A stretch of 64,000 nucleotides of DNA, from assembly GCF_003967015.1 (NCBI RefSeq), contig NZ_AP017560.1, forward strand, positions 558,001 to 622,000, given 5' to 3'. The translations under genes were made by a program, and so were the position numbers. A model generated the notes under the pieces. That model did not search any database. It was not told the DNA's origin and saw only the letters and a list, made by a program, of their open reading frames with translations. This DNA is from Pseudanabaena sp. ABRG5-3 (lineage in GTDB: Bacteria > Cyanobacteriota > Cyanobacteriia > Pseudanabaenales > Pseudanabaenaceae). This document shows positions 32,711 to 52,839 of this stretch, in pieces; the stretch's first letter is position 1, and each line of letters begins with the position of its first letter.

Positions 32711-35700
32711 CTAAGCAGGATTATAGACCTTGTTTGCCGTTACCGCAGTATCGCAATCGGCTGGGCGATCTTTACTGCCCAGCGCATAGGTTGTGTAATT
32801 TGAGGGCTTAGTACCTAGTTTTTGCTTATAGCCGACATTGATGATATCGGCTGCGGTATTGTCTGTCTCAAGTTTGGCGGGATCAGGCTGTAAGGCACAG
32901 AGCATAGTTTTGATCCAAGGATCATCTTTGGTTGCCTCTCTAAAGAACTCGTTGGGGTTGGGCAACGCTTGCGAGAACCTTTGCGCGAACAAGTCGGGCT
33001 GTTGGACTAGCAAACCAACGTCAAATCCCCATTTTCTGCGAGGTGGTGAGTAGAAAGGCACTGACTGCACTGTGACGGACTGGTAATACTTGGCAAAGTT
33101 GCTGAGGGGAGCAGTAACCGCCGCAGGGTTGGTAAACCAAGTCTGCATATCGCTACTGGTCTCAATACAAGTGTCACGGGTCGCATAGGACAAAGTCGTA
33201 GTACATCCAGTGACGGACAAGCTGCTGTAGGGGGCAGTTGCTGAGAATGGTGCAGTAGCAAAGACACTACGGGTATTTTGAATAAATCCACCTGAGATCT
33301 GTAGGGTTTGACCTGTCCAGTTCTCCATGAAGCGGACAAAGTTGTGCAAGCCTCCGCCTGTCTCACCTGTATAGATTGTGGTGTTAGGCGTAACTGCTGT
33401 TGCCGATGTGGTGTATGGCACATAGGAACGTGATGGGGTGTTACCTGCTACGAAGTAAATGTTAACCGTAGCGGCACTTGCTCGCTGTGTCCATTGACCT
33501 GTGCCATCACCTGCGGTTGCGGCGGCGGCAGGATTACCATTAATACCATTCAGATACTTTTGGTTATAACCAGTGGGCTGTGGCATTGCTGCGGCAGTAG
33601 CGGCGGGGGTAGAAGCTGCTACTGTTTTGGCGATCGGTGAGTGCAGTTGGATCACGGGAACGACTATGGGCTGATTGACCGTGGTCATCGCAGTAATCAT
33701 CGCTGTGGAGTCAACCCCGATCGCTGCTGGCGAGACTACAGGTGCAGTAGCCGATTCGGTCGCAGCTTGTTTGACATTAACTGCTCTAAATCCTAAGAAT
33801 CTAGCACTTCTAATCGAAACACCCTGACCACTGTAAGTAGGTCCAATATTTAACCCTGTCACAGTATCTCTGGCTCCACCAGTGGCGGGCATTGTACCAA
33901 TGAAGTTACCAACCAATACAGTGGGTTTGCCAGCAGTCGTACCCTGAATCGTTAGAGCCTTTGGTCCCAATCTAGGGAATAACCAAAATACCTTGTTAGG
34001 ATCAACACCTTGCAACTTGACATACAAGCCATCAATAGTGATATCCGCAGAATCAGGTGCGCGAAGTATGAAGGTTGGATCGGTATTGCCATTGGCATTT
34101 AAGGTAAGGGTCGAATTGAGCAGCGAAGTGAAATTGGCAGCCGTCAAATCTAAGACATTAGGTTTAGTGCTGCTAGCTGCATTCACCGACCAAGTAGTAC
34201 CAGAGCCACTTAGCGATACTGCTTGTCCAGTAGTGAAGTTAGTAGTAGTTAACCCTGAGGCAAAATTCACGATCGCACTTCTTGGATTGCCCAATGTAGT
34301 CGGACAACTACTACCTGTAATGTCATTGAGGAATGTCGTACCAAGCTGCTGAGTTGCTTGATATCGGCGTGAAGCACCTGTTGCACCGCAAACTGTAAAT
34401 GACGATGCAGGTTGATTGGTTGCACTGCCATCGGGGAATGTAGTGTTAGCAGGTAAATTGAGATTGAGGGTCGCGCCTGCATCAGTGCAGGTTTTGTCTA
34501 CCAAGCCCGTTGTGGGGTTGATACAAACTGTTTCAGGCAAGATTAATGGCGCAGGCTGATTGGTATTAAATGTGCCATTGGATGAGGGGTTAGCGGCGGT
34601 TGAGTCATAGCTGGTGTTGTAGATAAATAGGTTGCGCGTGTTTTCATATTGGGTGTCAGCACTATCACCAGTTGTGTCGCTGTTTGCAGCAGTAGTTCTG
34701 TACCATAGCGATCGCGCTACCCTCTGAGGAACAAGCTTGGACATTCCGGGCAACATCGGAGTCTGAGCATTTTCCGTCGCCGCAGTACCACTAGGGACGT
34801 AAGGTGCTTGATCAGGGGCAATGTCGGGGAATTGATTGGCTACAGGAACGCCCCAAGCGCTATTACCTTTAGTGTTAGGAACAAATGAATAGCCAGCCGA
34901 TCCTGCATAGCTGGGGAAAGGATAGTTAGTTGTGCCAGTAGGAGCTGCGGGATAGGCAGCAGCTAAGGGGCTAGATTCAGGAATACGAGGCATGATTGCC
35001 GAGAATGGCAAGCGCGTATGACTAAACGACCTTTGAGGGAAGAGAGTTCCAGGACCAATGGGGATAGGCGTTGGTGTTGGCGTTGGTGTTGGTTTCGGTG
35101 TTGGCGTTGGTGTTGGTTTCGGTGTTGGCGTTACTACTGGTGTTGGTGTTGGTACTGGTGTTGGTGTGACAGGCTTCGGTGTTGGTGTTGGTGTTGGTAT
35201 TGGTGTTGGTGTTGGCTTCGGTGTTGGTGTGGGGATTGGTGTTGGTACTGGTGTTGGTGTTGGCTTCGGTGTTGGTGTGGGGATTGGCGTTGGTGTTGGT
35301 GTTGGTGTTGGTGTTGGTGTTGGCGTTCCACCAGTTGATGGCGCATCATCATTGTCAATCCTGACCCAACGATAATCCCAATTGTTAGCATTGCTTGTGG
35401 GATTGGGAGCAGTAACGGTTCTTAATACAGTACCTGTATCCTTCTCATTTGGATTATCAATCCGCACACGGAATCTTTCTCTTTCCTCAACGGCACTATC
35501 GCGGACAACCAAGACTGTCACCCATTGGAAACAGGTGGTAGTGGCAGAAGTGATCGCTGAACATTGAGGATTAGTGGTGTCGGGGAATTTGAGAACTTGT
35601 TTGCCGCCCGCCGCAGGAGTACCCACATAGTCAGCAGGAACCCAAGTTGTACCATTCCAGCGATAAATGGTGGAGAGATAGTCAGTACCAGTGCCAGCTC

Positions 35701-38700
35701 CACGCGCAGTGATAGATTCAGAGTTTGGAGCCCCCCCAATCTGATTGACAGGTGTAGTTTGAGTGGCACTACCTCCATAGGAAGTGTTTCTAACTTGCGG
35801 TTGCAGCCCTGTCGCCCCTGTACCTAAGTAAAGTCCGCGCTTAGCAATATGCGATGCGTTACTATCCAATCCTGTTAACGAGGCGGGATTAGGATCTTCC
35901 GTAGAAATCTCCACGGTGATCGGAGTTGCAGGAGTTCCAGTAGCTGGATCGCTGTTATTAGCCGTATTGGGATTGTCAACAATTACCCTAAATGTGTAGG
36001 GGCGATAAATGGCGTTATTGCTCAATCTCAGGTTAGTCGGAGGATTGGAAACAGCATTTCCCGATCCATCATTAGTAGCTAGAGATGTACTTGTGCCAGT
36101 GGCTGGAGGGTACTGACGGACAACATTTCGTTGGGTATGCCCGGGCCATGTGACGGGGTTATCGGTGGAGTTATTGGTATTAGGAGTAATAAAGTTTGGT
36201 GCGGGTAGATCGCCACCAGCAGCGATCGGCGCAAAGGCGTTAGTCTTTACATAGTCGGAGGCTGTTGTATTGGCAGTAGTTGGGGCAGGATAACTTGTGG
36301 GCAGATCACCTTGGCGTAGAGGTGGGTTCTGAGGGTTAGAAGCGGTGATTGCGCCTGAAATCAAGGGATCACCCGCATCAGGAGGACTTTGGGGCAAGGT
36401 ATAGATGCTTCTACCCTCAACATCACCAATATCATTATTGTTATCAAATCTGACTACAGGATGTGCCGCAGGGCAGCCAACATTGCCATAGGCGGTGCTG
36501 TTAGACAGACTAAAGGGTGTGGTGCGATCGCCTAATACCTGTGGATAGGTATAGCCAGCATTAGAACCCGCAGTTGCTGAGGTATTACCATTCACAACCC
36601 CAATGGGCATCGGCCACCAGTTGTTGAGGTTAGGACAAGAACCTGCCGCCATGATTAGTGCTTCGTTGCCATCTTTGTAGATGTCGTCATAGCGCAAGAA
36701 TGACAAACGACGGGGGAACCGCTCATCCGCAGTCGCAATATATCGAGGGGCATCCGATGGTGTTGCCGCAGGCGTACTAGTATTCGGTAAAGCCGTTGTA
36801 CCTGCACCATCCTTGACCCAATCACTAAAAGTACATTCTGACGCAGGAACTTTGCGGCAAATCTCCATGCCATATTCGCCAAAGATCACCCGACGCTGGA
36901 CAGGAGTGACACCATTAGAGAGATAGCTATTAGTGTTAGTAGTAGTTAGTCCTGGCCAGAGATTGGAGTCGATATCAGAGCTAGAAGTTGCAGCACCAAG
37001 AGCTGTAAAAGCGGGGTAGGAGCCAGAATTTCCTGAGATCGTATCGGCAACAGTTGCATTAGGCAGCCAGTTGGAACTAGTGACAAAGTTATTGTTCAAG
37101 AAGCCCATACTCAGGCGCTTGATCGATGGCAAGTCTTGGCGCTCTGATAGAGCAGCACTACTACCTAACCCAACCGTTTGACTGAGTAATTTAGTAGTTT
37201 GACTGCGATCTTCCCAATTAGTATTGGTTGAGGAGTTACGGTTATTGCGGAGGTCATAGTCCCCTTGATCGCGGAAGCCTTCTCTGAAGCTATCAGACTG
37301 CACCGTAATACCATCAGAAATTACCGTCGCTGGTCGCCACTGATCACCACCAGATCCTCCTGATGAGGCTTGAGCCTGTCCGGGACGATAGGCAAAGTTA
37401 GGATTTAGAGTGGTGCGAGTGTAGAAGTTACTCCAATCACTAGCCAGTGCAGTTGTAAACTCCTCAGCCGTGTGCAGGTTAAACCCGCCACCGTCAGCCT
37501 TGACATATACAGGATCATTAGAAACTAAAATCAATCCCTTTTCGCCTTGAGTGGCTGTACTGTAGTTTGGCTGTGTAGTACCAGTACCACGCCAGAGACG
37601 AGTTCCATTTCGTAGACGAATGCCATTGGGACGACGGGATGGATCAAGACGAAAATCGGTTGAACTTAGCGATCGCCGCTTGCTCATCAGAGTAGTGACA
37701 GGATTTCCGCTTGTGTCAGTATCAAAGTAGCTCAGATCGGGCAGTGCGTCATCACGAGTCGCATAGACAACGCCACTGTAGGGTAGTAAGTAGTCTGGAT
37801 TTACGCCATTAGTAGTGTTGTTAGTTCCTGAGATAGTTGTTGATCGCAATATATCCATATCGAGATCAGTCACCCGAATTTCTAGCGGCTCACGCTGTTC
37901 TATTTCAAGGTTATAGAGATCGGAACGATTGCTACTATTTGCAATTGGTGTAGTTAAAGACTCATCTTGATTGAGAGCCTTCACTTCTCGACCATCTAAG
38001 AATGCTGCTTCCTTCACTGCAAAGTTAGGGAAAAGAGTCGTACTCTTAGTGATCGTGCCATCGAGAATTTGTAGTGAACAGAGTGTTGAGTCTATGGCTG
38101 ACTGGTCAGGCAAAGTCAGCGTCTGGCTTCCTGCAACTTTAATGAGCGCATTTCGTAATGCTTCATTGGCAAATCTACCATTAGGGAACATCAAGTTTGC
38201 TTGATATGCTAGACGAGATGATAGAGCAACACCAGCGTCCGCAGGATCATCAGCTCCAGAAGCGACTGTAAATAGCCCTGTTGAATTGGTAAAGGTGATG
38301 CCAGATGTGATGTTAGCCGCAGTTTGACCAACAGCATAGGAATATCCATTATTTGAGCGCCCACCTGCTACAGAAACATCTTGAGCAGTAACGGAATTAG
38401 TGGGGTCGTAGTAGCTGCTGACACAGGCGATCGGTGCTTGGTATGTAGCAGGAACGGCAGGGTCATATGCCGATGTTTTGTAGTGATAGACCGCAGTGGC
38501 GCGCATCTGCAAGTCACCCTTCCGATTATCAGGGTTGGGTGCAGTATTGCCTAGAGCATCGATAGTAACAGTTGCCGCATCAGCCGAATTTGCCCACCGC
38601 CCAGCAGTCCAGTTCCAAGGACGATAGACATTGGGAGTTACGGAAGTATCTAGTGTGACCGAGCCAGTCATTGGCATCGCATCACTCCAGACAACTGGGA

Positions 38701-41161
38701 AATTCGCTTCATTTAATCTGTAACGAAAATCAGATTCTGGTGATGAAGTGGAAGTGTCGTTGGAGGTAATCGGGTTATCAACTAAAGCAGGTGGTGCGGG
38801 TAGAAATGTTTGGTTTGCTTTGCGGCTGTAAACCCCTGCGCTAGTAACCACTCTGAGACCGCCACTAACGGGTGTAGTGGTGGGAGTTGACTTGCCAGTA
38901 GCATCAAAGCCAGGGTTGTCAGCCGCATTGAGTTCCCAGAAACCACCTCGATCTGACACACCCAAGGACTTGAGAGAATTTGATTGGGTAAAACGATAGC
39001 GACTGTTAGCAGCAGAGGCTGTGATCGCGGAAGTCTCTGTAGCATTCCAGCGAATAGAATCGTTACTGGTGAGGTAATTTGCCTCCGTCAAGCCTACATA
39101 GCGATTGATGCCACCATCATTTTTAAGCCATAGTGCAGGTAAGTTATTGCCAACCAATACGCGATCGCCTAAAAACTGCTCGTAAGTAACCTTCTCATCT
39201 TCGGGTTTAGTGGCAGGCAGAGCAGCGATCGATGCCGATGAAATTGTACTGGTTTGACCTAAAGTCAAGTCGCCAATTTTTGCGACCGTGGGTGGAACTG
39301 TAGTTGGAGTTGTGCCAGCACTTCCCCTAATCAAGGATTTTCCAGCCTTAATGTTTGTGAGATCGGCAGCTACAGAGACAGACCCTGTCATTGGAGCTGC
39401 GTTGCTATAAGCAGGAATCATCCATTCGATTGGAGGTTGCCATTCTGAACCGCTAGCTGTGGTAACTGTGGTAATTGCGGGTGTAACTCCACCGTAAATC
39501 ACGCTATTGGGAGCGCCATAGGGAACTTCACGATAGGGAACTTTGCGTGTCCGCAATCTAAAATAAGCATCTAAAGCCTTTCTGCGAGCAACTCTAAAGT
39601 CAGCTTCTGTAGTTAGACCTTCATCAATTACTCGCTTTACAATATCTAGTTTGACAGGCAGTGGATCACTAGTCAGAACATCCTTATCTGTAATCGATGC
39701 GTAGGAAGGTAATCCTGAAGTAATGACATTCGCCCCTGAGAATGTGGCATCAGCTAAGTTAACTAGTGCATCTACTCGGAAGTTATAGGCAAAGTCATTA
39801 AAAGCGACATCACGCCCCCGATTTGAGTCATTATCTTCTAAGCTTTGGGTCGTATTATCAATGATCTTGATTTGTCCTGCGCCTGCTCCAGCATTAGTCC
39901 CGATCAAGGTATTAGGATTACCACCCGTAGGATCTACCCCGCCTCCTCGGAACAAATGCACCCCAACTGTCGAATTCACACTCAGCGAATTATCACTAAC
40001 GAGAGCATCCCCTTCAACGACATTCCCTGCTACAGAAATTTTGCTATTTTCTTCTTTGTAATAGCAAGAAGAGGGACTACTAACTTGGAAAAGTCTGATG
40101 GGAGAACTTTCAACCCCCAACATCAGATTCCCTGCTGTATAAATTCTTCCGTTCAAGTCAAAGGCTGCGGCTCGTGATATTTCTAAGTCCCCTTCAAACC
40201 AAACCGCATTATTATTTTGTGGCGATCGCGCACGGTCTTGTTGGAGTTCGAGCGCACTGAAAGATGGATTGCCAGCATAAGTCTCAAAGGCTCCACTTGC
40301 TTGCTCTGCTGCGGTAAGAGGGCTAGATGGATCATTGAGTGGCGTAGTAATTGGAACCGTCAGGGCATAGACAAAGAAACTCTTTTTGAGAGCGTTATCC
40401 GATGTCGTTACCCAACCTTCCGTTGTACTAGCACCAGAGGAAGCCGCATTTACACAAGCACCGCTCAGTACCCCATTGTCCATCGGTGGCGTGCGGACTT
40501 CGATGGGGCTAACTGCACGGGTATTGAGGTTAGTAACGGTATCCCGTGGCGTTGTACGGAAAAGAATAGTGTAAATTGCAAAGGAGTCAAATTTACCATT
40601 GCTATCAGTATCAACAGGGAACTTCCAAGTCGTACCAACAGCGTCATTATCAGAGATCGCAACTGCTCCCCAGTTAATAGCCGTAGGGGAACCGTTTACC
40701 TTGGGATCGACAATTTGGAGGCGAACTTCATCGGCAAAGGTGTAGTTACCATTGTCACTAGTGATGGCTTGGTAGAGTGAAGATTCAGGTGGAGTTCCCC
40801 CAGGTAGAGTGGGATCTTCGATCAGGGCGCTAATCTTTGCCCTAGCGCGATCGAGAATCGCCGAGTTAGCGCTGCGATATACTTGTTCGACTCTCGCGTT
40901 AGAAGCTTCTCTAGCACGGTCAGTTGATCGTGCAACTGTGGAAACTACCAGCAAGCTGACAACTAAAGTCACCAAAGTCACAGTTGGCAAAATGAAACCG
41001 CCCGCCTTGCGTTTTTTCCCGCTACTGCCATTGAGCAATAGGCGAATAAAGCGGCGACTAATCCGAATTGGGCTGCCGATTTTGTTTAGCCATTTTCTAA
41101 TCTTGGCAAGAAATTCGGCAAAAAAACGATTGAGTTTGCGGCTTTGCTTGGAGTCGGACAT
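32711..41161 (-). CDS. hpsA: Giant hormogonium polysaccharide protein HpsA
   Basis: This is a protein of about 2816 residues (frame open five codons further to a TTG; ATG 41161 preferred). A basic leader is followed by a prepilin-like hydrophobic helix near residues 53-80 ([20 protein letters not shown]), in which the position of Glu5 is Thr. The helix continues as [22 protein letters not shown], like PilX_N/GspK-type minor pilins. The remainder is extracellular, Ser/Thr/Asn-rich and beta-like. A Calx-beta-like stretch lies near residues 1880-1930 ([24 protein letters not shown]). A Pro-Thr repeat spacer of about 90 residues (1944-2034) and a further beta-rich domain with GPKALTIQG-type strands follow. 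It heads the hps pseudopilin series on the minus strand. In Nostoc, hps genes are needed for hormogonium polysaccharide and motility. Confidence 0.88.
35060..35329. repeat. Tandem hexamer tract encoding the Pro-Thr spacer of HpsA
   Basis: About 270 bases consist of degenerate GGTGTT-type hexamers on the plus strand, which read as Pro-Thr, Pro-Ile, Pro-Lys and Pro-Val pairs in the hpsA frame. Longer subunits such as GGTTTCGGTGTTGGCGTT recur, showing higher-order duplication. Unit number could vary by slippage in steps of two residues without breaking the frame. Confidence 0.9.
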
Positions 41162-41290
41162 AAAAGTTTCTACCAACCTGACTGAAATATATTACCCAAG
41201 CAAGTTGTAAAAGTTGCAAATATTTCGATTCTGATCAAAAAACGGGGCTAGTCCTCAAGATGTGATGATGCGCCACATTACCTATGCTGC

Positions 41291-41386
41291 TATAGCAACG
41301 AAAGTTTTGATTAATTTAGACGAGTTGCGCCGCAACTCGTCTAAATTAATCAATTGTTCTTATTTTCTGAACTAGCGATTGCTATA
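41291..41386. repeat. MITE-like element with TATAGCAA ends
   Basis: The ends TATAGCAACG and CGATTGCTATA are inverted. The core 41308-41352 is a perfect palindrome with 21-base arms and the triloop GCC flanked by GC. It is 96 bases long, with no coding capacity. It ends 28 bases before the start of the GT-C gene and so may affect its expression, in the divergent gap shared with hpsA. Confidence 0.85.
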
Positions 41387-41414
41387 TTACTTGTCTGGTG
41401 ACAGATCCGAAAAA

Positions 41415-42674
41415 ATGACCAATATTGCAAAAGCCCCATTAGAACTAGATTCCCATCGGTTTCATCTAGGATTGGCGATCGCCCTAGTTTTCCATCTGAT
41501 ATTGATCAGTTTTCCCATTGCCTTTTGGATTGATATGAATCTCTTTAAGGCTTGGTCACTAGATTTAGTGCAGCAAGGTATATCCCATTTCTATAGCTAC
41601 TCCAACTGTGACTATCCTCCTGCCTATCTCTATATACTGTGGCTAATTGGCAAGATTTATCAGCTTGTTGATCCAACCCTAAGTCATCGGGATGGATTAT
41701 TACTCATGGCGATGATTAAGTTACCACCGATATTGGCGGATATCGGCGCAGCATGGTTGATTGCCCAAATTCTCAAACCATATACTTCACTACACAATGC
41801 TCATAAACTCGCTCTACTCTATGCCTTTAATCCATTGATGTTGTTTGTATCAGCATTGTGGGGGCAGGTTGATGGGGTGATGATTTTGTTGATGTTAGGA
41901 GCTTTTTATTTAATTCAACAAAATTATTTGGTTAGATCGGGACTCTTAATTGCGGTGATGGTGATCTTTAAACCGCAGGGACTTTTTCTCGCGCCATTTT
42001 TGGTGCTTTCCCAATGGTTTCGGCAAGCTTGGTGGAAATGGGTGGTGATCGAGATCGGGGGACTTGCCATCATCTGGCTAATCGTAGAGCCATTTTATGG
42101 GCTAAAAGATGGTCTTGCTACCCCCTTTTTATCGCTCTACCAGCGTTTGCAAAGCACTGCTGATTATTATGACTTTGCCTCGGTGAATGCTTTTAATATT
42201 TGGGGGTGGGCAAATTGGGAACGGGACTATACAAAATTTCTGGGAATTAACTACAAGGTAATTGGTTTAGCCTTTTTGGGAATCCTTATGCTGTGGTTAG
42301 GGATATTTCTCTATCAGCAGCGTCATTTTGGCGCTCAATCTCTCGCAATCGCCACATTACTGATCGGATTTTTTATGTTGCCGACCCGAATGCACGAACG
42401 TTATATGTTGTATGGACTAGCTTTTTTGGCGATCGCAATTGCGGTGATTCCTACAATTAAATGGATCTATGGGGGCTTTACGGTTACGGGGGCGATAAAT
42501 GTGGGCTACGTTTATCTGCGCTATAACCATGAAGCTTTATTTAATACGATTCCCACAATGTGGTTTCAGAGCGTAATCTACACAGTAAGCGCCTTAAATG
42601 TCATCTTATTTGTAGTCCTTCTTTCCCACACTTTCCGATCGCAACCATTGCCAAACAAACTTTCAGCACTATGA
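41415..42674 (+). CDS. GT-C fold membrane glycosyltransferase
   Basis: This 419-residue protein has about ten hydrophobic helices. The first extracytoplasmic loop carries WIDMNLFKAWSLDL and YSNCDYPPAYLYILW, and later loops carry SALWGQVDGV and LPTRMHERYM. This arrangement is typical of polyprenyl-phosphate-sugar dependent mannosyl- or glucosyltransferases (DUF2029/PIG-M-like). The frame is open from a TTG at 41379 lying inside the upstream repeat; ATG 41415 is preferred. Its stop overlaps the start of a GT2 gene that could make the lipid-linked donor. Confidence 0.8.
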   Translation: MTNIAKAPLELDSHRFHLGLAIALVFHLILISFPIAFWIDMNLFKAWSLDLVQQGISHFYSYSNCDYPPAYLYILWLIGKIYQLVDPTLSHRDGLLLMAMIKLPPILADIGAAWLIAQILKPYTSLHNAHKLALLYAFNPLMLFVSALWGQVDGVMILLMLGAFYLIQQNYLVRSGLLIAVMVIFKPQGLFLAPFLVLSQWFRQAWWKWVVIEIGGLAIIWLIVEPFYGLKDGLATPFLSLYQRLQSTADYYDFASVNAFNIWGWANWERDYTKFLGINYKVIGLAFLGILMLWLGIFLYQQRHFGAQSLAIATLLIGFFMLPTRMHERYMLYGLAFLAIAIAVIPTIKWIYGGFTVTGAINVGYVYLRYNHEALFNTIPTMWFQSVIYTVSALNVILFVVLLSHTFRSQPLPNKLSAL

Positions 42675-43435
42675 GCTATTCACCTATGAACCATTCACTA
42701 TCTCTGTCTGTAGTAATTCCTGCCTATAACGAGGCGGAAAATATTGGTCGGGTGATTGCCAATGCCGTTGATTACTTGAGCGATCGCCAGATGCAATATG
42801 AAATTATTGTGGTAAATGATGGCTCTGTCGATGCAACTAAGGCGATCGTCATGAAGTTAGCCTCCCAAAACTCAAGGATTCGTTTAATTAATCATCCCCA
42901 CAATTTAGGATATGGCTCGGCCCTACGCAGTGGATTTGATCAGGCTCTCCATGAATATATTTTCCTGACCGATGGTGATGGGCAATTTGCCATTAGCGAC
43001 CTCGATAGTTTTCTGCCCTATACTCAAAAATCACATCATCATTCGCAAGTTGTAATTGGCTATCGGGCAAAACGTGCTGATGTATTTGTGCGATCGCTAA
43101 ATGCTTGGCTCTATCACATTTTTATTCATTGGTTACTAGGTCTCAAAGTCAGAGATATTGACTGTGCCTTTAAACTATTTCCCCGAAGTATTTACCAAGC
43201 GATTAGACCGATCAAGTCCGATGGAGCCTTATTCAGCGCTGAATTTCTCTTAAAATTGCAGCAATTGCCCATGCTTGAGCCAATCATCGAATTACCTGTA
43301 CGACATTTTCCTCGTAAATTTGGCGTAGCGACGGGGGCAAATATCAAAGTCATCCTAAAAATGTTTTGGGAATGCTGGCAACTTAAACAGGAATGCCGCG
43401 ACCATATCGCGATCGTCGATGTCGTTAAAACATAG
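42671..43435 (+). CDS. GT2 family glycosyltransferase, dolichyl/polyprenyl-phosphate sugar synthase-like
   Basis: This 254-residue GT-A enzyme has the SVVIPAYNEAENIGRVI start, VVNDGSVDAT, and the metal-binding LTDGDGQF motif. It lacks a multi-helix C-terminal domain, as do soluble DPM-type synthases. ATG 42671 gives a four-base overlap with the GT-C gene. A longer open frame from 42560 is rejected because it has no family homology before that ATG. The pair could form a donor-synthase plus membrane-transferase unit. A hairpin terminator overlaps its stop. Confidence 0.85.
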   Translation: MSYSPMNHSLSLSVVIPAYNEAENIGRVIANAVDYLSDRQMQYEIIVVNDGSVDATKAIVMKLASQNSRIRLINHPHNLGYGSALRSGFDQALHEYIFLTDGDGQFAISDLDSFLPYTQKSHHHSQVVIGYRAKRADVFVRSLNAWLYHIFIHWLLGLKVRDIDCAFKLFPRSIYQAIRPIKSDGALFSAEFLLKLQQLPMLEPIIELPVRHFPRKFGVATGANIKVILKMFWECWQLKQECRDHIAIVDVVKT

Positions 43436-43606: not shown

Positions 43607-45031
43607 TTAAATCCAGTTAAATCCTGCAATTCTATCGGGCATAAACCACATGCGCTGATAGAACTCACTGGGTAAGATGGGGATTCCTAACCAAATCGGC
43701 ATAAAGAAAATCTGGCTGACGATCACGGTAGCAATAATTCCATAGCCTAAATAACGAATTATGCCTTTCTGCTCCAGCATTTGGCAGACTAGCCATGCGA
43801 GAGCTACAAAGCTAAATACCGCAGCAGACATATAGTGATAGAGAAATAGGCAGCGCTTTACAATTAGCCAAGGAACATAGTTGGCGAAATATCCCAGTAG
43901 TAAATAGTTGGTGCTACCAAGATTCGTGGACTTCCGAAATTGTGGCAAAATCGAACCAAAGGTGATGATGACGATCGCCAAGGTCGAGAACCACCACAAA
44001 AGCGGATTACCCAGCCCTTGGATCACGGCAAAAAATTCATTTTGACTTTGAAAATAATAACCAACGGGTCTGGCTAAAACTGCCCAAGAAATTGCTGAGG
44101 AGCAGTAAGGATGGGCGGGATGGTCAGGATCGATGCTGGTGACAATATCAGTAGAATGCCACCAGAGAATATGTTTGTGAACTGCAACTAGGAATTTTGG
44201 AAAACCATTGAGCGCCTGCCAAGCATTTTCGGCAACGCTCCCACCCGAATTTAGTAAAAATAGGGGAATCCACTGCACTAGATAAAAGGCGATCGGCATG
44301 AAGACAAAGCATAGGAGATATTGCCACCAATGCAGTTTGGTAAGTTCGGCAAGTATCCCCAGCTTGGCAAGATTTTTGGGGAAGAATTTGGCGATCGCCC
44401 ATACGAGCAGAATAACTAAAAATAGCAATAGGCTAAATCCTAAGCCGTTCCACTTCACCGAAGCAGTTGCTCCTAGCATCAGTCCCGCACAACATAGCAG
44501 AAATGTGCGTAGTTTGCCCTGAGCCGCTAATCCCCCTAGCACAAACATCTGTGAGACTAGCCCAAAGGCAACTAAAAATACATTGAGTAGGGCTAAACGC
44601 GACTCAACCAAAAACAAGCCATCGCTGAATAGAAATAAACCTGACAACAGCGCAAAGTTCCGTTTTGCCGTAAGACGATAAACTAGCCCAATCACCAATA
44701 GGGGCAGAACCGATCCAAAACTTGCGCTGAGAATCCGAAAGCCAATTTCATTCTGTCCAAAAAGTAGTAACCCCAACATAATGAAGTATTTCCCCAAGGG
44801 TGGATGACCTTCCCAAGTGGGGTTTCCTTCTAGATATTCTTTAGCATATTGCCCAAATAGGGATTCATCGAAAACAGGATAGGGAATTTTGCCTAGTTGC
44901 CAAAAATGGAGAAATAAGGCGATCGCAAATATTCCTAAGCTTCCTAACACCAAATACCAATCCCATCCTTGCGATCGGCTTTGCCCAAGGCTATCAACAT
45001 TCTTATTGAGGTTGTTTTCTATGTTCTGCAT
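43607..45031 (-). CDS. Phospholipid carrier-dependent glycosyltransferase, PMT/GT39-like
   Basis: This 474-residue protein has about ten hydrophobic helices. The first loop holds the acidic FDESLFGQYAKEYLEG and EGHPPLGKYF motifs of protein O-mannosyltransferase-like enzymes, which take sugar from a polyprenyl phosphate outside the membrane. VKWNGLGF and FLYHYMSA are also family-like. The acceptor, protein or lipid glycan, is unknown. It begins the minus-strand side of the glycan block and faces the GT2 gene. Confidence 0.85.
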   Translation of the reverse strand: MQNIENNLNKNVDSLGQSRSQGWDWYLVLGSLGIFAIALFLHFWQLGKIPYPVFDESLFGQYAKEYLEGNPTWEGHPPLGKYFIMLGLLLFGQNEIGFRILSASFGSVLPLLVIGLVYRLTAKRNFALLSGLFLFSDGLFLVESRLALLNVFLVAFGLVSQMFVLGGLAAQGKLRTFLLCCAGLMLGATASVKWNGLGFSLLLFLVILLVWAIAKFFPKNLAKLGILAELTKLHWWQYLLCFVFMPIAFYLVQWIPLFLLNSGGSVAENAWQALNGFPKFLVAVHKHILWWHSTDIVTSIDPDHPAHPYCSSAISWAVLARPVGYYFQSQNEFFAVIQGLGNPLLWWFSTLAIVIITFGSILPQFRKSTNLGSTNYLLLGYFANYVPWLIVKRCLFLYHYMSAAVFSFVALAWLVCQMLEQKGIIRYLGYGIIATVIVSQIFFMPIWLGIPILPSEFYQRMWFMPDRIAGFNWI

Positions 45032-45054: not shown

Positions 45055-45111
45055 CCCAGCAAAGCTAAACAAAGTCAATGCGTAGCGTTGACTTTGTTTA
45101 GCTTTGCTGGG
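45055..45111. repeat. Long palindrome with GC-GTA-GC loop
   Basis: Twenty-seven-base arms (starting CCCAGCAAAGCTAAAC) enclose GTA, with one T-G pair near the loop. It lies between the PMT-like and TVP38-like genes and includes the TAA stop of the latter (45100-45098). Confidence 0.85.
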
Positions 45112-45739
45112 ATCTGGATCTGTACCATGTCCCTACTACAATCAATATTGCTAGCCCCATACTACTCGCCAGCAAAGGTAGTACATCATGACTTGTACTC
45201 ATTTCTACTCCTGTACTACCTAAAAACACAAAGGGCGCAATCCCTAAAGGTGTACCTAGCAAAGTTCCCAGTAAATAATCGCGACGCTTAATCGGACTCA
45301 AACCTGCGGCAAAACTAACCACACCGTAGGGAATTAGGGGTAGTAACCTTGCAGCAAAGGAATAGGCGATCCCTCCTGATACAAGATTTGCACTCACCGT
45401 TGACCATCGCTCATTGGTTGCCGCAAATTTTTCTGTGAATTCTGGGCTCAGCGATCGCGCCAGAATAAAACCTAGCAATGCTGAAAGTAAAGCTCCTAAG
45501 GAAGTCAGTAATAAACCTGCCACACCACCATAAAGCGCCCCACCCGCAATATTAAAGGCTGTCACAGGCAAAATCAGTAAAGTGGCGATCGCATAGGCAA
45601 TTACAAAAATCCCATAGCCCCACAGTCCCGCAGCTTGGACAATATCCTGAATCTGGTTAAACCCATCAATGTGAGTAAAGGTAATCCAGCTACTAATCAC
45701 AGTGAGAGCCAATATACTAATTAGCAGCTTTTTATTCAC
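45098..45739 (-). CDS. TVP38/TMEM64 family (DedA-like) membrane protein
   Basis: This 213-residue protein has five or six hydrophobic helices and the SNARE-associated/VTT domain pattern: TAFNIAGGALYGGVAGLLLTSLGALL, FAARLLPLIPYGVVSFAAGLS and LGTLLGTPLGIAPFVFLGS. Proteins of this group are thought to move lipids between leaflets. Its start overlaps the acyltransferase stop by eight bases, and its stop lies in a palindrome. Confidence 0.88.
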   Translation of the reverse strand: MNKKLLISILALTVISSWITFTHIDGFNQIQDIVQAAGLWGYGIFVIAYAIATLLILPVTAFNIAGGALYGGVAGLLLTSLGALLSALLGFILARSLSPEFTEKFAATNERWSTVSANLVSGGIAYSFAARLLPLIPYGVVSFAAGLSPIKRRDYLLGTLLGTPLGIAPFVFLGSTGVEMSTSHDVLPLLASSMGLAILIVVGTWYRSRSQQS

Positions 45740-46952
45740 TTGTAGTTACCTTCGATAAACTTAGCTTTCTGCTCAAAAAAGGACGTTCCCAGAACAGGGT
45801 AAGCAATGTTGCAATCACAATTGCTAAACCCATAGTAAAGACTGTAAAAACTATTTGCCATTGTGGATCATCATGGGGATCTGGGGTTAGTGGCTCAGGG
45901 AAACGTGCATGGAATAATTTGGCAGCAATAAACTGATGCCAGATATATAGGTTATAAGAAATCAAGGAGAAAAATGCTAAAAAGCGATTATTCAAAATCT
46001 TTTGTATCCAAGGATTGGCAAAATGTCCACCGATCGCGGCAAACATCAAAGCTATCCCTATAAATAATCGATTACGGGCTTGCCACAGGATCATGCCATT
46101 GGGCAAACTTGCCACAGTGCCAACATCTTTGATGAGAGCTACAAAACTAGCTAAACCTAAAAGCATAATCATCGAAAAAATTGGCATGTAACGGTCTATA
46201 TGTTGCAGATTGCGGAGCCAAACCAAAATATAGGCAGTCAACATTCCCACCGCAAATAAATCTAAAAATGCAGGCATCTGGCTTAGATATGGGGTCAACA
46301 TTCCACTACTTTGTTGTGCTGCCATAATGTACTGACGATAGGCGATCGCAAATCCCGTCATCAAGAAAGTAATCAGTAGTGGTCGGGTACGGAAAAACTT
46401 TGCCAGTACAGGAAAGATCAGATAAAACTGCACCTCCACTGCCAAAGACCAAAATACGCCATTAATCGAGTAATGGGTTTCAGGGAAAAAGTTATGGATA
46501 AAGAGAAAGTGGTTAATTAAATGCCAAGACAATTGCTCTTTAGGAAATTCCCACTCAAATAAAACCAGAATTAATAGGATTGCCAACAAATAGGAAGGCA
46601 ATATTTTTAAGGCGCGTTTACGCAAATAATCTTGCCATGAAGCTAGTGGATACTGCTCAAAGCAATGGCGAGCATGGGGATAAAAGAGACAAAATCCACT
46701 GATAAAGAAGAAAGTTTCAACGCCAAGAAATCCAAAGCGGGCGATAAAGTTTATATATACGGGACTATTCAATACCGTTGTAAAGTCCAGCCAAGATAAT
46801 TGCCAAACATGAAAGATAAATACTAATAGAATGGCAATTCCCCTTAAACCATCCATTACACCAACATGAGATTTCTCAATATGATCTTCTAACCCCAAGC
46901 CCCTATTAAATATATTTTTTGAGAGAAATAGAAACCTTTGTAATGTGATCAT
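45732..46952 (-). CDS. Acyltransferase family 3 (OafA/YrhL-like) membrane protein
   Basis: This 406-residue protein has about ten hydrophobic helices. It carries the family markers MDGLRGIAILLVFIFHV near residue 33, FFISGFCLFYP, and WSLAVEVQFYLIFP near 170. Such enzymes O-acetylate or otherwise acylate exported glycans. It overlaps the TVP38-like gene, so the two are likely coexpressed. It is probably a decorating enzyme for the local surface polysaccharide. Confidence 0.9.
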   Translation of the reverse strand: MITLQRFLFLSKNIFNRGLGLEDHIEKSHVGVMDGLRGIAILLVFIFHVWQLSWLDFTTVLNSPVYINFIARFGFLGVETFFFISGFCLFYPHARHCFEQYPLASWQDYLRKRALKILPSYLLAILLILVLFEWEFPKEQLSWHLINHFLFIHNFFPETHYSINGVFWSLAVEVQFYLIFPVLAKFFRTRPLLITFLMTGFAIAYRQYIMAAQQSSGMLTPYLSQMPAFLDLFAVGMLTAYILVWLRNLQHIDRYMPIFSMIMLLGLASFVALIKDVGTVASLPNGMILWQARNRLFIGIALMFAAIGGHFANPWIQKILNNRFLAFFSLISYNLYIWHQFIAAKLFHARFPEPLTPDPHDDPQWQIVFTVFTMGLAIVIATLLTLFWERPFLSRKLSLSKVTTSE

Positions 46953-46991: not shown

Positions 46992-47882
46992 TCACTCAAC
47001 TTTGCGAAGAATAACAAATATACTTCCAGTGTCAGCATACCAATTCAGATTACCCAAACCAAACAATTTAACAATCAGGCTAAGTAATCTTGCCAGATTA
47101 TAAAACCCATAATGCTCTAGTCTATCGACAATAAAGGGAATATTTGAGTATTGACCAGATTTTTTCATTACTTCTACCCTTAGCCCATGATCTTGAGCCA
47201 ACCGTTTTAATGTTGAAGGAGAAAAGTAATATAAGTGTTCCACAGGCTTAAACTGAAACCATCGTCTTCTAAAAACTCGATATTGGAGACTCTCGATATT
47301 AGGTGTGGAAATTGCAAGAATACCTTGATCCGAAAGTAAACTACTAATTTTTGCGAAATCTTTCTGTAACTCAGGTAAATGTTCAATTACATCAAACATC
47401 GTAATCAGATCGTATTGATGTACGGCAGTGAAATACTCTAGAGGTTCATTACTGATTGTATATCCCTTCTGAATAAGCAAATCATACATACGATGCTCCA
47501 GTTCTATCCCCTCAACCTGCCACTGATGTTCTTGTAAAACATCAAGAAAATATCCTGCGGCACAACCGATATCTAGTGCAATTCCTTTGTTTATGCAGTA
47601 TGGAGCAAGATCTCTATACCACTTCTCAAAGGTTTTAATTCTTAAATTGGCAATGCTTTCATAGTCATTATATCCATCTTGATTACGATGAAAATATTCA
47701 TGGCGATAAACATCAAAGAGATAGTTATTACTAATTCTAGGATTAACAAATGACATGCTACATGTAGAGCATCTCACAATATCAAATCCCTGTATTGAAT
47801 ATAGCTTTTTATAATTTGCTCCACCACATATAGGACATGGATATTTATGGAGTTTAAACTTAGGAATATCAAGTTTAGACAT
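46992..47882 (-). CDS. Class I SAM-dependent methyltransferase with N-terminal zinc-ribbon-like knuckles
   Basis: This 296-residue protein has four cysteines, Cys16, Cys19, Cys38 and Cys41 (CPICGG and CSTCSMSF), forming a zinc-ribbon-like head. A Rossmann methyltransferase domain follows, with motif I ALDIGCAAGYFLDVL near residue 105 and the acidic YDLITMFDVIEHLPE motif. This architecture is common among sugar or glycan methyltransferases of bacterial polysaccharide clusters. It lies 31 bases after the zinc-ribbon GT-C gene on the same strand. Confidence 0.85.
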   Translation of the reverse strand: MSKLDIPKFKLHKYPCPICGGANYKKLYSIQGFDIVRCSTCSMSFVNPRISNNYLFDVYRHEYFHRNQDGYNDYESIANLRIKTFEKWYRDLAPYCINKGIALDIGCAAGYFLDVLQEHQWQVEGIELEHRMYDLLIQKGYTISNEPLEYFTAVHQYDLITMFDVIEHLPELQKDFAKISSLLSDQGILAISTPNIESLQYRVFRRRWFQFKPVEHLYYFSPSTLKRLAQDHGLRVEVMKKSGQYSNIPFIVDRLEHYGFYNLARLLSLIVKLFGLGNLNWYADTGSIFVILRKVE

Positions 47883-47913: not shown

Positions 47914-49332
47914 TTAAGCGGCAAATAGTTTAGGATTTAGGAATAGAACTGCACCAAACATATTGAACCAAAGAGAAATTAAGATACAGGTGAGTGGAAG
48001 TACACGAGTAGGGTCAACCTTAGATTTCAGTAATAGAAAAGAAGCAAATGGAAAGAAATCTAAAAAGTAGCGATAGCCAAATTGTTGCCAACCAGTTGAA
48101 CAATGTGTAAATACAGGTATAGCAATGATTGCCATACATAACCAAGCAAAATGCTTCCAAGAATCGCCTCTGTTTTTATCTCTCAGAACATATATAAATA
48201 AAGGACTAATTGCCAAAATGCCATTACCCATATCATCAATCTTGAAAAAAGGAAATTGAGTAACTAGTTTGGGGATAGCGATAATGCCGTGGTATATGTT
48301 GGGAAAAATATAGATTAAATTCCGAAACCCATATTTTTGAATATTTTCTTGAAAAAAGTCTGCATAGAGAAGCTCTTCATACTTAATCGAAAATGGACTA
48401 CCAAAACGTACCCAGTTCCACCAAGCTACAAACATAATAAACATAACTGCTGGAATACATAAAGCAGCCAATGCTTTAAGATTTCCCGCATAACGACGAC
48501 ACCAAGCTTTAAGAATAAAGGCTGGGAAAATTACTGCTAAATGAAACCGCCCAATTGAAGCGATCGCTAGTAAAGTAATGGCAAATATATCTTGTTTTAA
48601 ACTCTTAGAATTATAAAAAGTTAACCAAGCTAATGATAGGAACAAACAGCTACCGAGGACAGCATTAAACCAAGATGAGGCAATGACTGTACAGGGTAAC
48701 AGCATCGTCCCCATTGCTAAAAAGATAAATAATAGACTACGTTGACCAATTTTTTGATCTGCGGCAAATTTCTCCACATATATAAATTGAATGATAATAA
48801 GAATAAAATAGAGGATTAAAGAAAATATTGTTTCTGTAATTTTGCCTTTAAAAAAATAGACAAATGGTAGAATCAGAAAACTATTTAATGGTGGAATTGC
48901 GAGAAATAATTGACCATTAAATGGGATTAAATCAAGATCCCAATTGACATCAAGATTAGCTCTACCTTGCAAAAATGCTTCAGCTTGTACATAGAACATT
49001 TCTCCACTTCTTCCATCTAAATGACCACTGATAGAATAAGAAATAATAAATGTGACTATAGTACAAAAAATAATTATGCTAGCTGCATAGCTAAGCTTAT
49101 AGCTGATTATCAGAGATTTTAAAATGTGATTTGTTCTACACAGTTCAATAAATGCTCGATGCAATAAACTTTTATTTTTAAATCTTTGAAAATTAATTTC
49201 AGGTAAGTAAAGCTTTTTGTTAGTTCTATCTATCCAAATATTGTTGCAAATTTTACAACTATACTTTTTCTCCCCGTTAGTAGTTTCACCATGTTTATTA
49301 AGCTGTGTACTATTACATAAAGGACATTGCAT
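47914..49332 (-). CDS. Membrane glycosyltransferase-like protein fused to an N-terminal zinc ribbon
   Basis: In this 472-residue protein, Cys3, Cys6, Cys26 and Cys29 (CPLCNS and CKIC, in a KKYSCKICNNIW context) form a zinc ribbon like that found at the start of IS1-type InsA proteins. From residue about 75, ten or so hydrophobic helices follow, with the loop motifs EAFLQGRANLD and WQQFGYRYFLDFFPF. These are shared with the paralogue at 50836-52029, which lacks the ribbon. The membrane part resembles GT-C transferases, but I cannot name a characterised member. GC content is lower here than in neighbouring genes. Confidence 0.65.
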   Translation of the reverse strand: MQCPLCNSTQLNKHGETTNGEKKYSCKICNNIWIDRTNKKLYLPEINFQRFKNKSLLHRAFIELCRTNHILKSLIISYKLSYAASIIIFCTIVTFIISYSISGHLDGRSGEMFYVQAEAFLQGRANLDVNWDLDLIPFNGQLFLAIPPLNSFLILPFVYFFKGKITETIFSLILYFILIIIQFIYVEKFAADQKIGQRSLLFIFLAMGTMLLPCTVIASSWFNAVLGSCLFLSLAWLTFYNSKSLKQDIFAITLLAIASIGRFHLAVIFPAFILKAWCRRYAGNLKALAALCIPAVMFIMFVAWWNWVRFGSPFSIKYEELLYADFFQENIQKYGFRNLIYIFPNIYHGIIAIPKLVTQFPFFKIDDMGNGILAISPLFIYVLRDKNRGDSWKHFAWLCMAIIAIPVFTHCSTGWQQFGYRYFLDFFPFASFLLLKSKVDPTRVLPLTCILISLWFNMFGAVLFLNPKLFAA

Positions 49333-49500
49333 TGATGTTTTGTTTTAGATAAGTGACAGCTTAGTTTAACAAATCTTTTTTCTGTTGACATATTTTTCGA
49401 GGCTAGAGTAAATCACTAAAATTTATAATTTTTCATTCAGTATTTTCTATGTTTATGGTAAAGATATAGCTCAAAGCCCAACCTGCTATTGCTAAATAGA

Positions 49501-50847
49501 ATGAATACAAACCCCAATGAAAAAATTCGTCAGCAATTTGACTTAATGCCCTATCCTAATTTGCCTGCATCGCAAATGGGAGGTGATGGCGATCGCGGTT
49601 TGATTTTGCATTCTTTTGTGACGGCTTGGTATGCCAAAACTCAACGGGTTGGCGATCGCCAAGATTTGACAATTTTAGATATCGGTTGTGGTTCGGGAGT
49701 AACTACCTTAGCTTTAGCGATCGCAAATCCCAAGGCGCGGATTGTGGGCATCGATCTCTCAAAGGCTTCTTTAAAATTGGCAAGCGATCGCCTCACTTAT
49801 CATGGATTTCCTGATGCCGAATTTTATAATTTGCCCATCGCCGAGCTTCCGCGCTTAAAAGAAGAACAGGGAATCGAATTTGACTATATTAACTGCGAAG
49901 ACACGCTCTATTTCTTAACCGAACCAGCCGAAGGATTGCAAGCGATGCGATCGGTTCTCAAACCTGAAGGTTTATTACGGACAAATGTTCATAGTCTCTA
50001 TCAACGTGCCGATTTTTTTCGCGCCCAAACCTTTGCCAAATTGTTAGGATTTCTGGATGGAAATCCCACGGAAACAGAGTACAGGCAAATTTACGCAATT
50101 ATGGAAGCCTTAGGCGATGGAACAATGCTCAAGGCAAGTACTTGGACTCCCTCCGATAAATCTTTTGGCTTTGTATTGATGAATTACGTGATGCAGGAAG
50201 ATAAGGGCTTTACGATTCCTGATGTTTTTCAAATGTTGCGATCGGCAAATTTAGAATTTGTGAGCATGATCAATCCTGCGGACTGGCGTTGGCAAAATAT
50301 ATTTCCCAATGGAATGCCAGAGCATTTCAGTCAATTTTTAACAAAGGTTACGGCTGAGCAAAGTCTTCATGCCTTTGAACTGCTCCAACCCGTTAACCGT
50401 CTGCTGGATATTTGGTGCGGTCACTCAGGGCGATCGCCTGAATATGTAGAGATTAGTCAATGGTCGGATGAAATGTGGCATTCAGCAACGATTCATTTGC
50501 ATCCTGTTTTGCGAACCGATCAGTTTTTTCAAACTCTAGATCAAGCGATCTCCCAAATGCGTCCCGATGCTAATTTGCAAAAATTACATCGACCGAACCT
50601 TGATGCTCTCACAGTAACTCTCTGTTTGCGATTTCTTTGGCAGCGTCCCTGTAAATTCTCGGAGCTTGTCACCTATTGGTGCAGCCACAAACCTAGACTA
50701 GAAGCTTATCGGCAAGTTTCGACCATTATCGGTGGTGCTGTTGCACTAGTTGGCAAACTCAGCGATCGCCAAGCTCAAGATGAACTCAAATTTTTATTAA
50801 GTGAACTTGTTTTAGATTATCTGGTGCTGCTCGAATTACCATCCTAG
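49501..50847 (+). CDS. Class I SAM-dependent methyltransferase, two-part
   Basis: In this 448-residue protein, residues about 1-230 form a methyltransferase domain with the start IRQQFDLMPYPNLP, motif I ILDIGCGSGVTTLALA and acidic post-I residues VGIDLSKASL. The C-terminal 210 residues have a separate, unrecognised fold that includes VTYWCSHKPRLEAYRQV. The frame is open from a TTG at 49489; ATG 49501 is preferred. The 3' end overlaps the convergent GT-C-like gene by 12 bases. Confidence 0.8.
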   Translation: MNTNPNEKIRQQFDLMPYPNLPASQMGGDGDRGLILHSFVTAWYAKTQRVGDRQDLTILDIGCGSGVTTLALAIANPKARIVGIDLSKASLKLASDRLTYHGFPDAEFYNLPIAELPRLKEEQGIEFDYINCEDTLYFLTEPAEGLQAMRSVLKPEGLLRTNVHSLYQRADFFRAQTFAKLLGFLDGNPTETEYRQIYAIMEALGDGTMLKASTWTPSDKSFGFVLMNYVMQEDKGFTIPDVFQMLRSANLEFVSMINPADWRWQNIFPNGMPEHFSQFLTKVTAEQSLHAFELLQPVNRLLDIWCGHSGRSPEYVEISQWSDEMWHSATIHLHPVLRTDQFFQTLDQAISQMRPDANLQKLHRPNLDALTVTLCLRFLWQRPCKFSELVTYWCSHKPRLEAYRQVSTIIGGAVALVGKLSDRQAQDELKFLLSELVLDYLVLLELPS

Positions 50848-52029
50848 TTTGACTACCCAATAAACTCCCCAGACATTGACGATCACAGATAAAGTAATTA
50901 AGACCCATGCCAATGCCTTAGGCATTCGTTGTAGACCACTAGCGATCGCCACAAATAGAAATGGTAAATAATCAAGGGCATAGCGATAGCCAAACTGCAC
51001 CCAACCCGTTGCGGTATAGATCATCGCAGGTAGAGAGATTAAAAATGCTGATAATCCTGCTAAAACTATCAAAACATCAAACCAGTTAGCCGCAAACAGA
51101 GCAAAAAATGCAGGTGTCGTTAACCAGATATTCATCCCCTCTGGTTTTGGACGCACAAAGGGGAATTGCGGTAAGAACTCAGGCATTTCTGTAAAGATCA
51201 GCTTGATATGTCTAGGAATATAGGCTTTATTGAACAACCCATACTTCTCAATCGCAGGTGCTTGCACTGACGAATAATAGTTTTGCAGCATATAGCCTGA
51301 CTCCATCGGATCGCCAAATCTCGCCCAGTTAAACCAAGACTGGAATAAAAAAAGCGGCGCAAAACCTGCTCCAAAACTAATACCTTTTTGAATCCATTTT
51401 TCGGGACGTTCCCATACTAGCCAACCGAGGAAAAATAGCGATCCCAAAACTGTAGCCTGACGCGAGAGAAAAGCAAGCCCCATAAAGAATCCTATCAGCG
51501 CAAATCTTCGCTTCCCAAAAAATTCCACTAAGGCAAGGAGCATCCCCCACTCAGCGACCACATGGGCATAGAACCAAATTGTGCCAATAATGCTAGCGCT
51601 GTAATGCACAGTCCCAAACCCATAGAGAATGGTTAAGCCGACGCGCATAGCACCTTGCACAGTCATGCGCCCCAACAATGTCCATACTAAAAAGACATCG
51701 ACAGCCCCAAACAACATACATACGCGAATTTGTTCTGTGGCAATGCCCCAAATCGCCACAAAAGGCATAAGCAAAATCGAAGGAAGTGGTGGGTTTGGTA
51801 GATAGATCTTGTCTTTCCAGTAAATTAAATCCACATAATAGTCAGGCAAATTAAACAGATCGAGCCGCCCTTGCAAAAATCCCGATGCTTGATAAACAAA
51901 ATGCTTATACCAATCTGGATGCACAATATGGGATAAGAAATAAACTCCAAATGGAACAAAGATCCATAAAATACCCCACAGAAAAATCTGTTTAAGGCTT
52001 TGTTGCTCAGTAGAGATCGTTGTAGTCAT
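50836..52029 (-). CDS. Membrane glycosyltransferase-like protein (paralogue of 47914-49332)
   Basis: This 397-residue protein has about ten hydrophobic helices. ASGFLQGRLDLFNLP in the first large loop and VQFGYRYALDYLPF near the C-terminus align with the corresponding motifs of the zinc-ribbon protein at 47914-49332. This suggests a common GT-C-like fold and a duplicated role in glycan transfer. The ribbon is absent here. It overlaps the convergent methyltransferase gene by 12 bases at the 3' ends. Confidence 0.7.
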   Translation of the reverse strand: MTTTISTEQQSLKQIFLWGILWIFVPFGVYFLSHIVHPDWYKHFVYQASGFLQGRLDLFNLPDYYVDLIYWKDKIYLPNPPLPSILLMPFVAIWGIATEQIRVCMLFGAVDVFLVWTLLGRMTVQGAMRVGLTILYGFGTVHYSASIIGTIWFYAHVVAEWGMLLALVEFFGKRRFALIGFFMGLAFLSRQATVLGSLFFLGWLVWERPEKWIQKGISFGAGFAPLFLFQSWFNWARFGDPMESGYMLQNYYSSVQAPAIEKYGLFNKAYIPRHIKLIFTEMPEFLPQFPFVRPKPEGMNIWLTTPAFFALFAANWFDVLIVLAGLSAFLISLPAMIYTATGWVQFGYRYALDYLPFLFVAIASGLQRMPKALAWVLITLSVIVNVWGVYWVVKLGW

Positions 52030-52230: not shown

Positions 52231-52839
52231 TTACAGAAAATCCGTTGGTTTGGGGGTGTAAAAAATTGCTCTGATCGCAAAGCCGATCGCGAGACTGCTA
52301 CTTGTAAGGATGCCCAAAATAATGAAATTTTTAATATTGCTTAATTCGAGATACTGAATTTGCTTACCAATCAGGGTGATCGTCGCAGCGAGTAACCCGA
52401 TCGCGACACTAGCAATCCAACTCGATGGAATTTGAAATAGGGAAATGGTAAAGGCGATCGCGAGGGCAAAGGTAACTATGGTCGAGAGAATTTCAATAAT
52501 CGAAAGTTTTTTGTCAGGCTCAGCACTATAGCCCACATCTGCAAAACCTAACCAGTACATTACTAGACATACGCCCAAGGTGATCAGGCTAGGAGTCAGA
52601 CCAGCTTGCCAATAGACAATTATTAATGAAGCGATCGCGGCAAGTAGCCCACCCAGACTTTGCGGTATGGCAAAGATCCCCGCAACAGCTAAACCCAATA
52701 ATAAACTTGCGATCGGGTAATTATGATCAGTGATTAATGTACTGATGTAACTACCTAAATATCCATAGGCGATCGCTATAGTTATGAAAGAGAGCAATAA
52801 TCTTAGCCCAACTTCAACTCTCCCAATTTTGAGTGCCAT
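52231..52839 (-). CDS. Hypothetical membrane protein
   Basis: This 202-residue protein has six likely membrane helices (for example LLLSFITIAIAYGYLGSYIS, ASLLLGLAVAGIFAIPQSLG, FIILGILTSSSLAIGFAIRA) and short loops. No motif is recognised. It lies 60 bp downstream of another small membrane-protein gene on the same strand, so the two may be cotranscribed. No function can be assigned. Confidence 0.65.
   Translation of the reverse strand: MALKIGRVEVGLRLLLSFITIAIAYGYLGSYISTLITDHNYPIASLLLGLAVAGIFAIPQSLGGLLAAIASLIIVYWQAGLTPSLITLGVCLVMYWLGFADVGYSAEPDKKLSIIEILSTIVTFALAIAFTISLFQIPSSWIASVAIGLLAATITLIGKQIQYLELSNIKNFIILGILTSSSLAIGFAIRAIFYTPKPTDFL

Follow-up and report, generated by a model that had tools for sequence, protein, structure and literature searches.

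The window, a stretch of 64,000 nucleotides of Pseudanabaena sp. ABRG5-3 (contig NZ_AP017560.1, positions 558,001 to 622,000 of the forward strand), contains a variable region with genes for envelope glycosylation. In this region an open reading frame on the reverse strand joins a zinc ribbon to a GT-C-like membrane protein. The genes and features, in coordinates of the window, are as follows.

32711–41176, reverse strand: protein of 2821 aa, left flank of the variable region (no Pfam match at E ≤ 0.001)
41379–42674, forward strand: GT87 GT-C enzyme (GT87 match)
42560–43435, forward strand: GT2 glycosyltransferase (Glycos_transf_2, 1.8e-28)
43607–45031, reverse strand: PMT-type O-mannosyltransferase (PMT, PMT_4TMC)
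45098–45739, reverse strand: VTT-domain (DedA-like) membrane protein (PF09335)
45732–46952, reverse strand: membrane acyltransferase (Acyl_transf_3)
46992–47882, reverse strand: methyltransferase with a zinc head of its own (Methyltransf_23)
47914–49332, reverse strand: head-bearing GT-C-like protein, ATG start, 472 aa
47917–49107, reverse strand: GT-C-type membrane body of this protein (body A), residues 76–472 (structure search; body alignment)
49165–49332, reverse strand: whole exchangeable head, residues 1–56 (nine-head alignment; hhalign of body B against A)
49189–49203, reverse strand: PEINF tail motif of the head, residues 44–48 (motif test on heads)
49225–49332, reverse strand: zinc ribbon, residues 1–36 with C3, C6, C26 and C29 (NF050000 30.7 bits; head profile 102.9 bits; dN < dS)
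49489–50847, forward strand: second methyltransferase (Methyltransf_31)
50836–52029, reverse strand: ribbonless GT-C paralogue (BLASTP 28% identity, E 8e-28 to body A; PMT_2 below cut-off)
52231–52839, reverse strand: membrane protein of 202 aa, right flank of the variable region (homologue comparison)

The 472-aa protein carries CxxC pairs at residues 3 and 26, followed by a charged linker, and a simple scan finds nine hydropathic segments in it. This bears out the initial annotation, which described a four-cysteine ribbon joined to about ten membrane helices of GT-C type and a related paralogue that has no ribbon; the latter recurs in several genomes. No other methionine occurs before residue 112, so no alternative ATG yields the membrane body without the ribbon and a misplaced start codon is ruled out. 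Residues 1–77 hold 13 lysines and arginines versus 5 aspartates and glutamates, and the first outer loop holds 2 versus 6. The ribbon passes the cut-off (28 bits) of the NCBIfam model NF050000 for the IS1/IS1595 ribbon. With the Pfam model PF03811 (InsA) it reaches 22.7 bits as a protein (cut-off 26.1) and 28.4 bits in a six-frame genome search, in which three further, weaker matches lie elsewhere in the window's genome. The IS1 transposase model NF033558 matches residues 3–47 only, at 27.9 bits against a cut-off of 100. A single, low structure row covers the ribbon, namely the plant Dof DNA-binding domain (8xuf_C, residues 1–47, Z 5.1). A PDB sequence search with the ribbon profile matched C2H2 fingers, which we take as motif convergence.

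The AlphaFold model of the protein, built with six sequences, is weak (pLDDT 55.8, pTM 0.54), and a Foldseek search with it gave no match at E ≤ 0.001, the best being ALG3 at 1.2e-3. Re-alignment with VIA-align placed ALG6 first (Z 13.4, 281 residues, 4.9 Å), with ALG3 (Z 12.3), OST, PMT, PglB and ArnT among the other matches. By title, the first 34 rows are GT-C enzymes or complexes containing one, and the identity of the matched chains is in part our assumption. They fall within model residues 60–472 at Z 9.5–13.4, a range to be read with the tool's own note that helical bundles can give Z values as high as about 13. These rows support a GT-C fold for body A. Like ALG6, ALG3, PMT, OST/PglB and ArnT, it has the body fold with a long acidic first outer loop; unlike in these enzymes, whose rows all begin at model residue 60 or later, a ribbon is added to the common fold. 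Two candidates for an acidic catalytic residue lie in this loop: D106, which is D or E in seven of the eight rows of the body alignment and R in the genome G043, and D134, which is invariant. Body A would be a glycosyl transferase that uses a polyprenyl-phosphate sugar. The family model of the putative glycosyltransferases LA_3751/LA_3752 (NF047440) resembles it weakly over residues 138–462, but at 17.9 bits it stays far under the cut-off of 200. A PDB sequence search with the body profile returned weak zinc-finger matches only. In GT-C enzymes the active site faces outward. Since the model gives body A a GT-C fold, the known topology of these enzymes predicts a cytosolic ribbon, on the opposite side of the membrane from the active site.

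A head profile was built from nine heads, in whose alignment all four cysteines are invariant, and was searched against 26 genomes of the genus. Eleven intact heads were found at 90–111 bits in 10 of them, each on a polytopic membrane protein. Below these follow two fragments of a decayed head in G002 (46.6 and 40.6 bits), and the remaining matches, from about 31 bits down, are transposase ribbons where read. Since the nine-head profile recovers the 11 intact heads at such scores, the ribbon is, judging from sequence, more than a chance motif. A twelfth, diverged head in G010 reaches 22.3 bits with this profile and was counted as a head because of its tail and its position within the locus; its score of 71 bits comes from a profile that contains the head itself.

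Fourteen Pseudanabaena loci were read. Eleven genomes have the 12 intact heads, which sit on five body types (A to E); the head of G002 is decayed, and G009 and G012 have none. Body A follows the head in G000, G004, G015, G021, G023 and G025, body B (a 619-aa protein) in G005, body C (460 aa) in G007, G013 and G024, body D in G025, and body E (666 aa with ten hydropathic segments) in G010. Body D belongs to an 882-aa double protein in which a GT87 domain (PF09594) lies between the head and a C-type body; the G025 assembly consists of 160 contigs, and its two heads may derive from mixed strains. About 17 hydropathic segments are seen in this protein (L040:2236-4884), and the GT87 enzyme of the window is 63% identical to its first half. 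BLASTP among bodies A, B, C, D (GT87 half) and E found nothing below E 0.001, the best pair being D and E at 0.004. When B is aligned to A with hhalign, residues 1–59 align and nothing else; in the profile comparison of C with A the head aligns and the rest only weakly. Body C falls below the cut-off of NF046093, no domain match covers body E, and a single-sequence model of body B was uninformative (pLDDT 41.8). We infer a GT-C nature for B, C and E, of which C and E look GT-C-like by appearance.

In the envelope-glycosylation region of Pseudanabaena, one variable gene keeps a constant 5′ part, the head of about 56 residues, and the membrane body that follows it changes from lineage to lineage (A to E). 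The same body exists with and without the head. Strong matches to body A occur in 9 of 97 genomes, eight in the genus (the window's own included) and G043 of another family at 49% identity. Seven of the nine have the ribbon, which is decayed in G002 and absent in G005, where the PMT gene is immediately followed by the headless body-A gene. Body B carries the head in G005 and has a headless relative in G012 (63% identical). A tblastn search with six heads detected no head remnant next to either headless gene, body A in G005 or body B in G012. Relatives of body C in G001 and G003 (30%) and the GT-C enzyme of G486 also start without a ribbon. Homologues of both kinds thus exist, and the ribbon is not an invariable part of the family.

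The decayed head of G002 (L031:10365-10543) has a frameshift and an in-frame stop, and the body behind it is intact and 91% identical; here a head is in the course of loss while the GT-C body stays open. In G023, where the head now sits on body A, a 55-residue stretch interrupted by stops (G023:C1:2662390-2662554, L137) resembles the end of body B (42% identity), which suggests a remnant of that body.

The ribbon could be an ordinary and ancient accessory of the GT-C family, inherited vertically with occasional loss, and the other bodies would then have gained it by one or two chance fusions. G043 fits this account, with body A ribboned in another family and a tandem neighbour that is ribboned too (L038:7984-10834, two GT-C-like genes, each with its own diverged ribbon, outside the Pseudanabaena locus context). 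So does the head tree, in which the C-type heads, D included, form one group (86/82, not starred). However, five body types within one genus, together with the G005/G012 pair for body B, exceed what chance loss would give, and the two G043 ribbons share only 18–30% identity with the heads of the genus, reach 24.6 and 9.4 bits when scored against the head profile and have no tail motif. We regard this account as quite improbable.

Beyond the genus, a scan of named genome records found four loci, all from Pseudanabaena, in a set that may lack the genome of the window or those very close to it. A search of 386 genomes of the phylum with the head profile, scoring up to 17 candidates in the majority of them, matched at least 41 at E ≤ 1e-4, three of which are genus genomes with known heads (G000, G007 and G002). 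The other matches examined, part of those listed, are transposase-like or soluble, and further membrane-borne heads are possible beyond them. In several other cyanobacteria (L085, L088, L091, L095 and L194), ORFs of 427–557 aa carry an InsA-like ribbon close to their start and are without predicted helices. The body profile, with no more than 3 candidates scored, matched at least 13 of 388 genomes of the class, all in the family except G043, and the first G043 protein matched 11 of 388; the order and family of G043 are represented by this one genome only. A plasmid search with the whole 472-aa protein gave no match, and a viral scan with the head profile gave one contig with a small ribbon-like ORF.

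Conservation of the head extends past the ribbon. All 10 heads tested carry a motif, [DEN][IV]N[FL], some 14 to 24 residues past the last cysteine of the ribbon. Its chance per shuffled tail is 0.2–2.8%, the heads being related and the tests not independent. The G010 head has EINI; to cover this head, one more residue (I) was allowed in the motif. The motif was seen neither in the two G043 ribbons nor in the transposase ribbons examined. Outside the motif the tail is variable, and the length of the linker differs widely. In all eight informative pairs out of nine, dN of the ribbon is lower than dS (e.g. 0.02/0.47, 0.14/0.69 and 0.10/0.30), the most distant being near saturation; like the motif counts, these values rest on few, related sequences. 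The ribbon looks to be under purifying selection.

The four invariant cysteines would also suit a zinc- or redox-responsive switch, in which zinc loss or cysteine oxidation alters the stability or activity of the GT-C enzyme and ties surface glycosylation to the metal or redox state. Such a switch leaves both the conserved tail motif and the presence of the head on unrelated bodies in one locus unexplained, and it has no regulator evidence on its side; we give it little chance.

A comparison of the window with G021 shows that the head is 55% and the body 86% identical. DNA identity is 0.54–0.80 at 49480–48615, which covers intergenic DNA, head, linker and the first part of the body, and 0.86–0.97 in 50200–49481 and 48614–46935; smaller dips (0.70–0.73) occur in the acyltransferase gene. 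Replacement of a tract would fit the main dip, and rapid divergence is another possible cause. The head on body B in G005 is closest to the G021 head, which is on body A (62%), and is 52–53% identical to two C heads and 51% to the head of the window.

The initial annotation had proposed that the ribbon came from a transposase gene. The InsA-type profile matches are compatible with this; among the other heads scanned only that of G005 passes NF050000 (30.5 bits), five others fall below its cut-off, and so do both G043 ribbons. The best transposase ribbon, however, reaches only 43.7 bits with the head profile; it comes from short transposase-like ORFs of the cyanobacterium G377, whose ribbons share the pattern MQCPLC...GK.PNG..RY.C..C. 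The heads are 23–37% identical to three ribbons of the G377 type, which is at least as high as their identity to the G043 ribbons. In the 56-column tree, two transposase ribbons branch within the heads at unresolved forks, and the tree does not separate the two groups. A transposase origin of the head is possible on these comparisons.

A wider form of this idea is that the head is a domesticated IS1/InsA ribbon, that recombination at the locus carries different membrane genes behind it, and that its conservation reflects some weak function still left to it, for instance in nucleic-acid contact or in expression of the 5′ end, rather than docking. The Dof domain as the sole structure row over the ribbon and the G021 dip, which resembles a replaced tract, speak for it. 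On the other hand, the 11 window ORFs run through Pfam gave no transposase match above cut-off, and among window ORFs of at least 40 aa the pattern C..C-14to24-C..C occurs only in the 472-aa protein and the methyltransferase. The apparent purifying selection and the tail motif, not seen in transposase ribbons examined, also stand against it. We consider this wider form unlikely.

The adjacent methyltransferase does begin with a CxxC/CxxC head, as had been observed, from which a docking module common to the two neighbours was suggested. This suggestion is not supported. The two heads have no significant BLASTP similarity (E 0.089), and the methyltransferase adjoins the head gene only in G000, G002 and G021. 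Furthermore, of 58 genomes, 14 have methyltransferase homologues that match at E ≤ 1e-12; the alignments of the more distant homologues start at residue 7–15 and include the head, and the four cysteines are kept in 10 of 10 loci examined. Because it recurs in this way, the methyltransferase head evidently belongs to its own family; the two PDB matches of the enzyme do not reach it. The actual sharing of the GT-C head, as the alignments indicate, is between the 472-aa protein and other, non-homologous membrane proteins.

The contents of the locus vary among the 14 genus genomes, in which PMT, VTT, GT2 and GT87 genes recur. The body-E gene of G010 lies between homologues of the two flank genes of the window (2821 aa and 202 aa). 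Relatives of the 2821-aa protein also flank the locus in other genomes of the genus. In G005, G007, G013, G024 and G025, the head gene starts 65–72 bp from a divergent VTT gene, the bodies being B, C, C, C and D, respectively, and in G012 the headless B relative starts 31 bp from VTT. The region is not spanned by a contig in every genome: the head gene and the PMT gene of G004 and G015 are on different contigs, the A-type head of G025 is on a small contig, and the G023 and G007 stretches are without the 202-aa flank. No gene confined to the head-bearing genomes was found.

Our preferred reading, to which we assign a probability of about 0.45, is that the head is a cytosolic docking or tethering module, by which GT-C-like enzymes are interchangeably connected to a single envelope-glycosylation machine that depends on polyprenyl phosphate. 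The head would bind one common component of this pathway, cytosolic or in the membrane (the GT2 sugar-lipid synthase, the VTT protein and PMT are examples), and the attached GT-C body would thereby come to lie where its polyprenyl-phosphate-linked sugar is supplied. As the head would make the contact, bodies could be exchanged without rebuilding the interface, and exchange behind the head would let the surface glycan diversify. The 12 heads, the unrelated bodies, the tail motif, the VTT spacing, dN < dS, the charge pattern and the GT-C fold count for docking. Against it count the dispensability of the head (decayed in G002, missing in the G009 and G012 loci and on body A in G005), the headless C relatives of G001 and G003, the G486 enzyme, a head that diverges faster than the body in the comparison with G021, the variable tail outside its motif, the varying linker length and partners that are candidates only. 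The stronger form of the docking proposal is a constant-head, variable-body system, in which a single zinc-ribbon adaptor serves to dock exchangeable GT-C enzymes to a common sugar-lipid machinery and surface glycans diversify as catalytic bodies are swapped behind a fixed cytosolic plug. We hold this form to be a real but doubtful prospect. A parallel would be modular proteins whose delivery end stays constant.

A similar architecture is known from the Znf-heliorhodopsins, in which a cytoplasmic N-terminal CxxC-17x-CxxC ribbon is joined to a polytopic membrane protein in six archaeal sequences (PMC8612252). The membrane family is different there, and the part of that paper considered here does not mention movement of the ribbon between unrelated bodies. 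The N-terminal ribbon of IS1/IS1595 transposases (NF050000, PF03811 InsA) has four cysteines at similar spacing and an NG..KY.C pattern, but in the present protein an EINF tail and then membrane helices follow. The zinc-headed methyltransferases (46992–47882) are alike in their N-terminal CxxC/CxxC head, and unlike in that this head has no significant similarity and is kept across their family. Literature searches on zinc ribbons with GT-C or related glycosyltransferases brought up no ribbon-headed GT-C enzyme among the papers listed.

To our knowledge, it is poorly understood how outward-facing GT-C enzymes are matched to cytosolically made sugar-lipid donors in bacteria. A removable and apparently selectively maintained head, probably cytosolic, on several unrelated membrane bodies offers a natural experiment for partner and donor channelling. 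If the docking proposal is true, it would show how cyanobacteria diversify their surface glycans.
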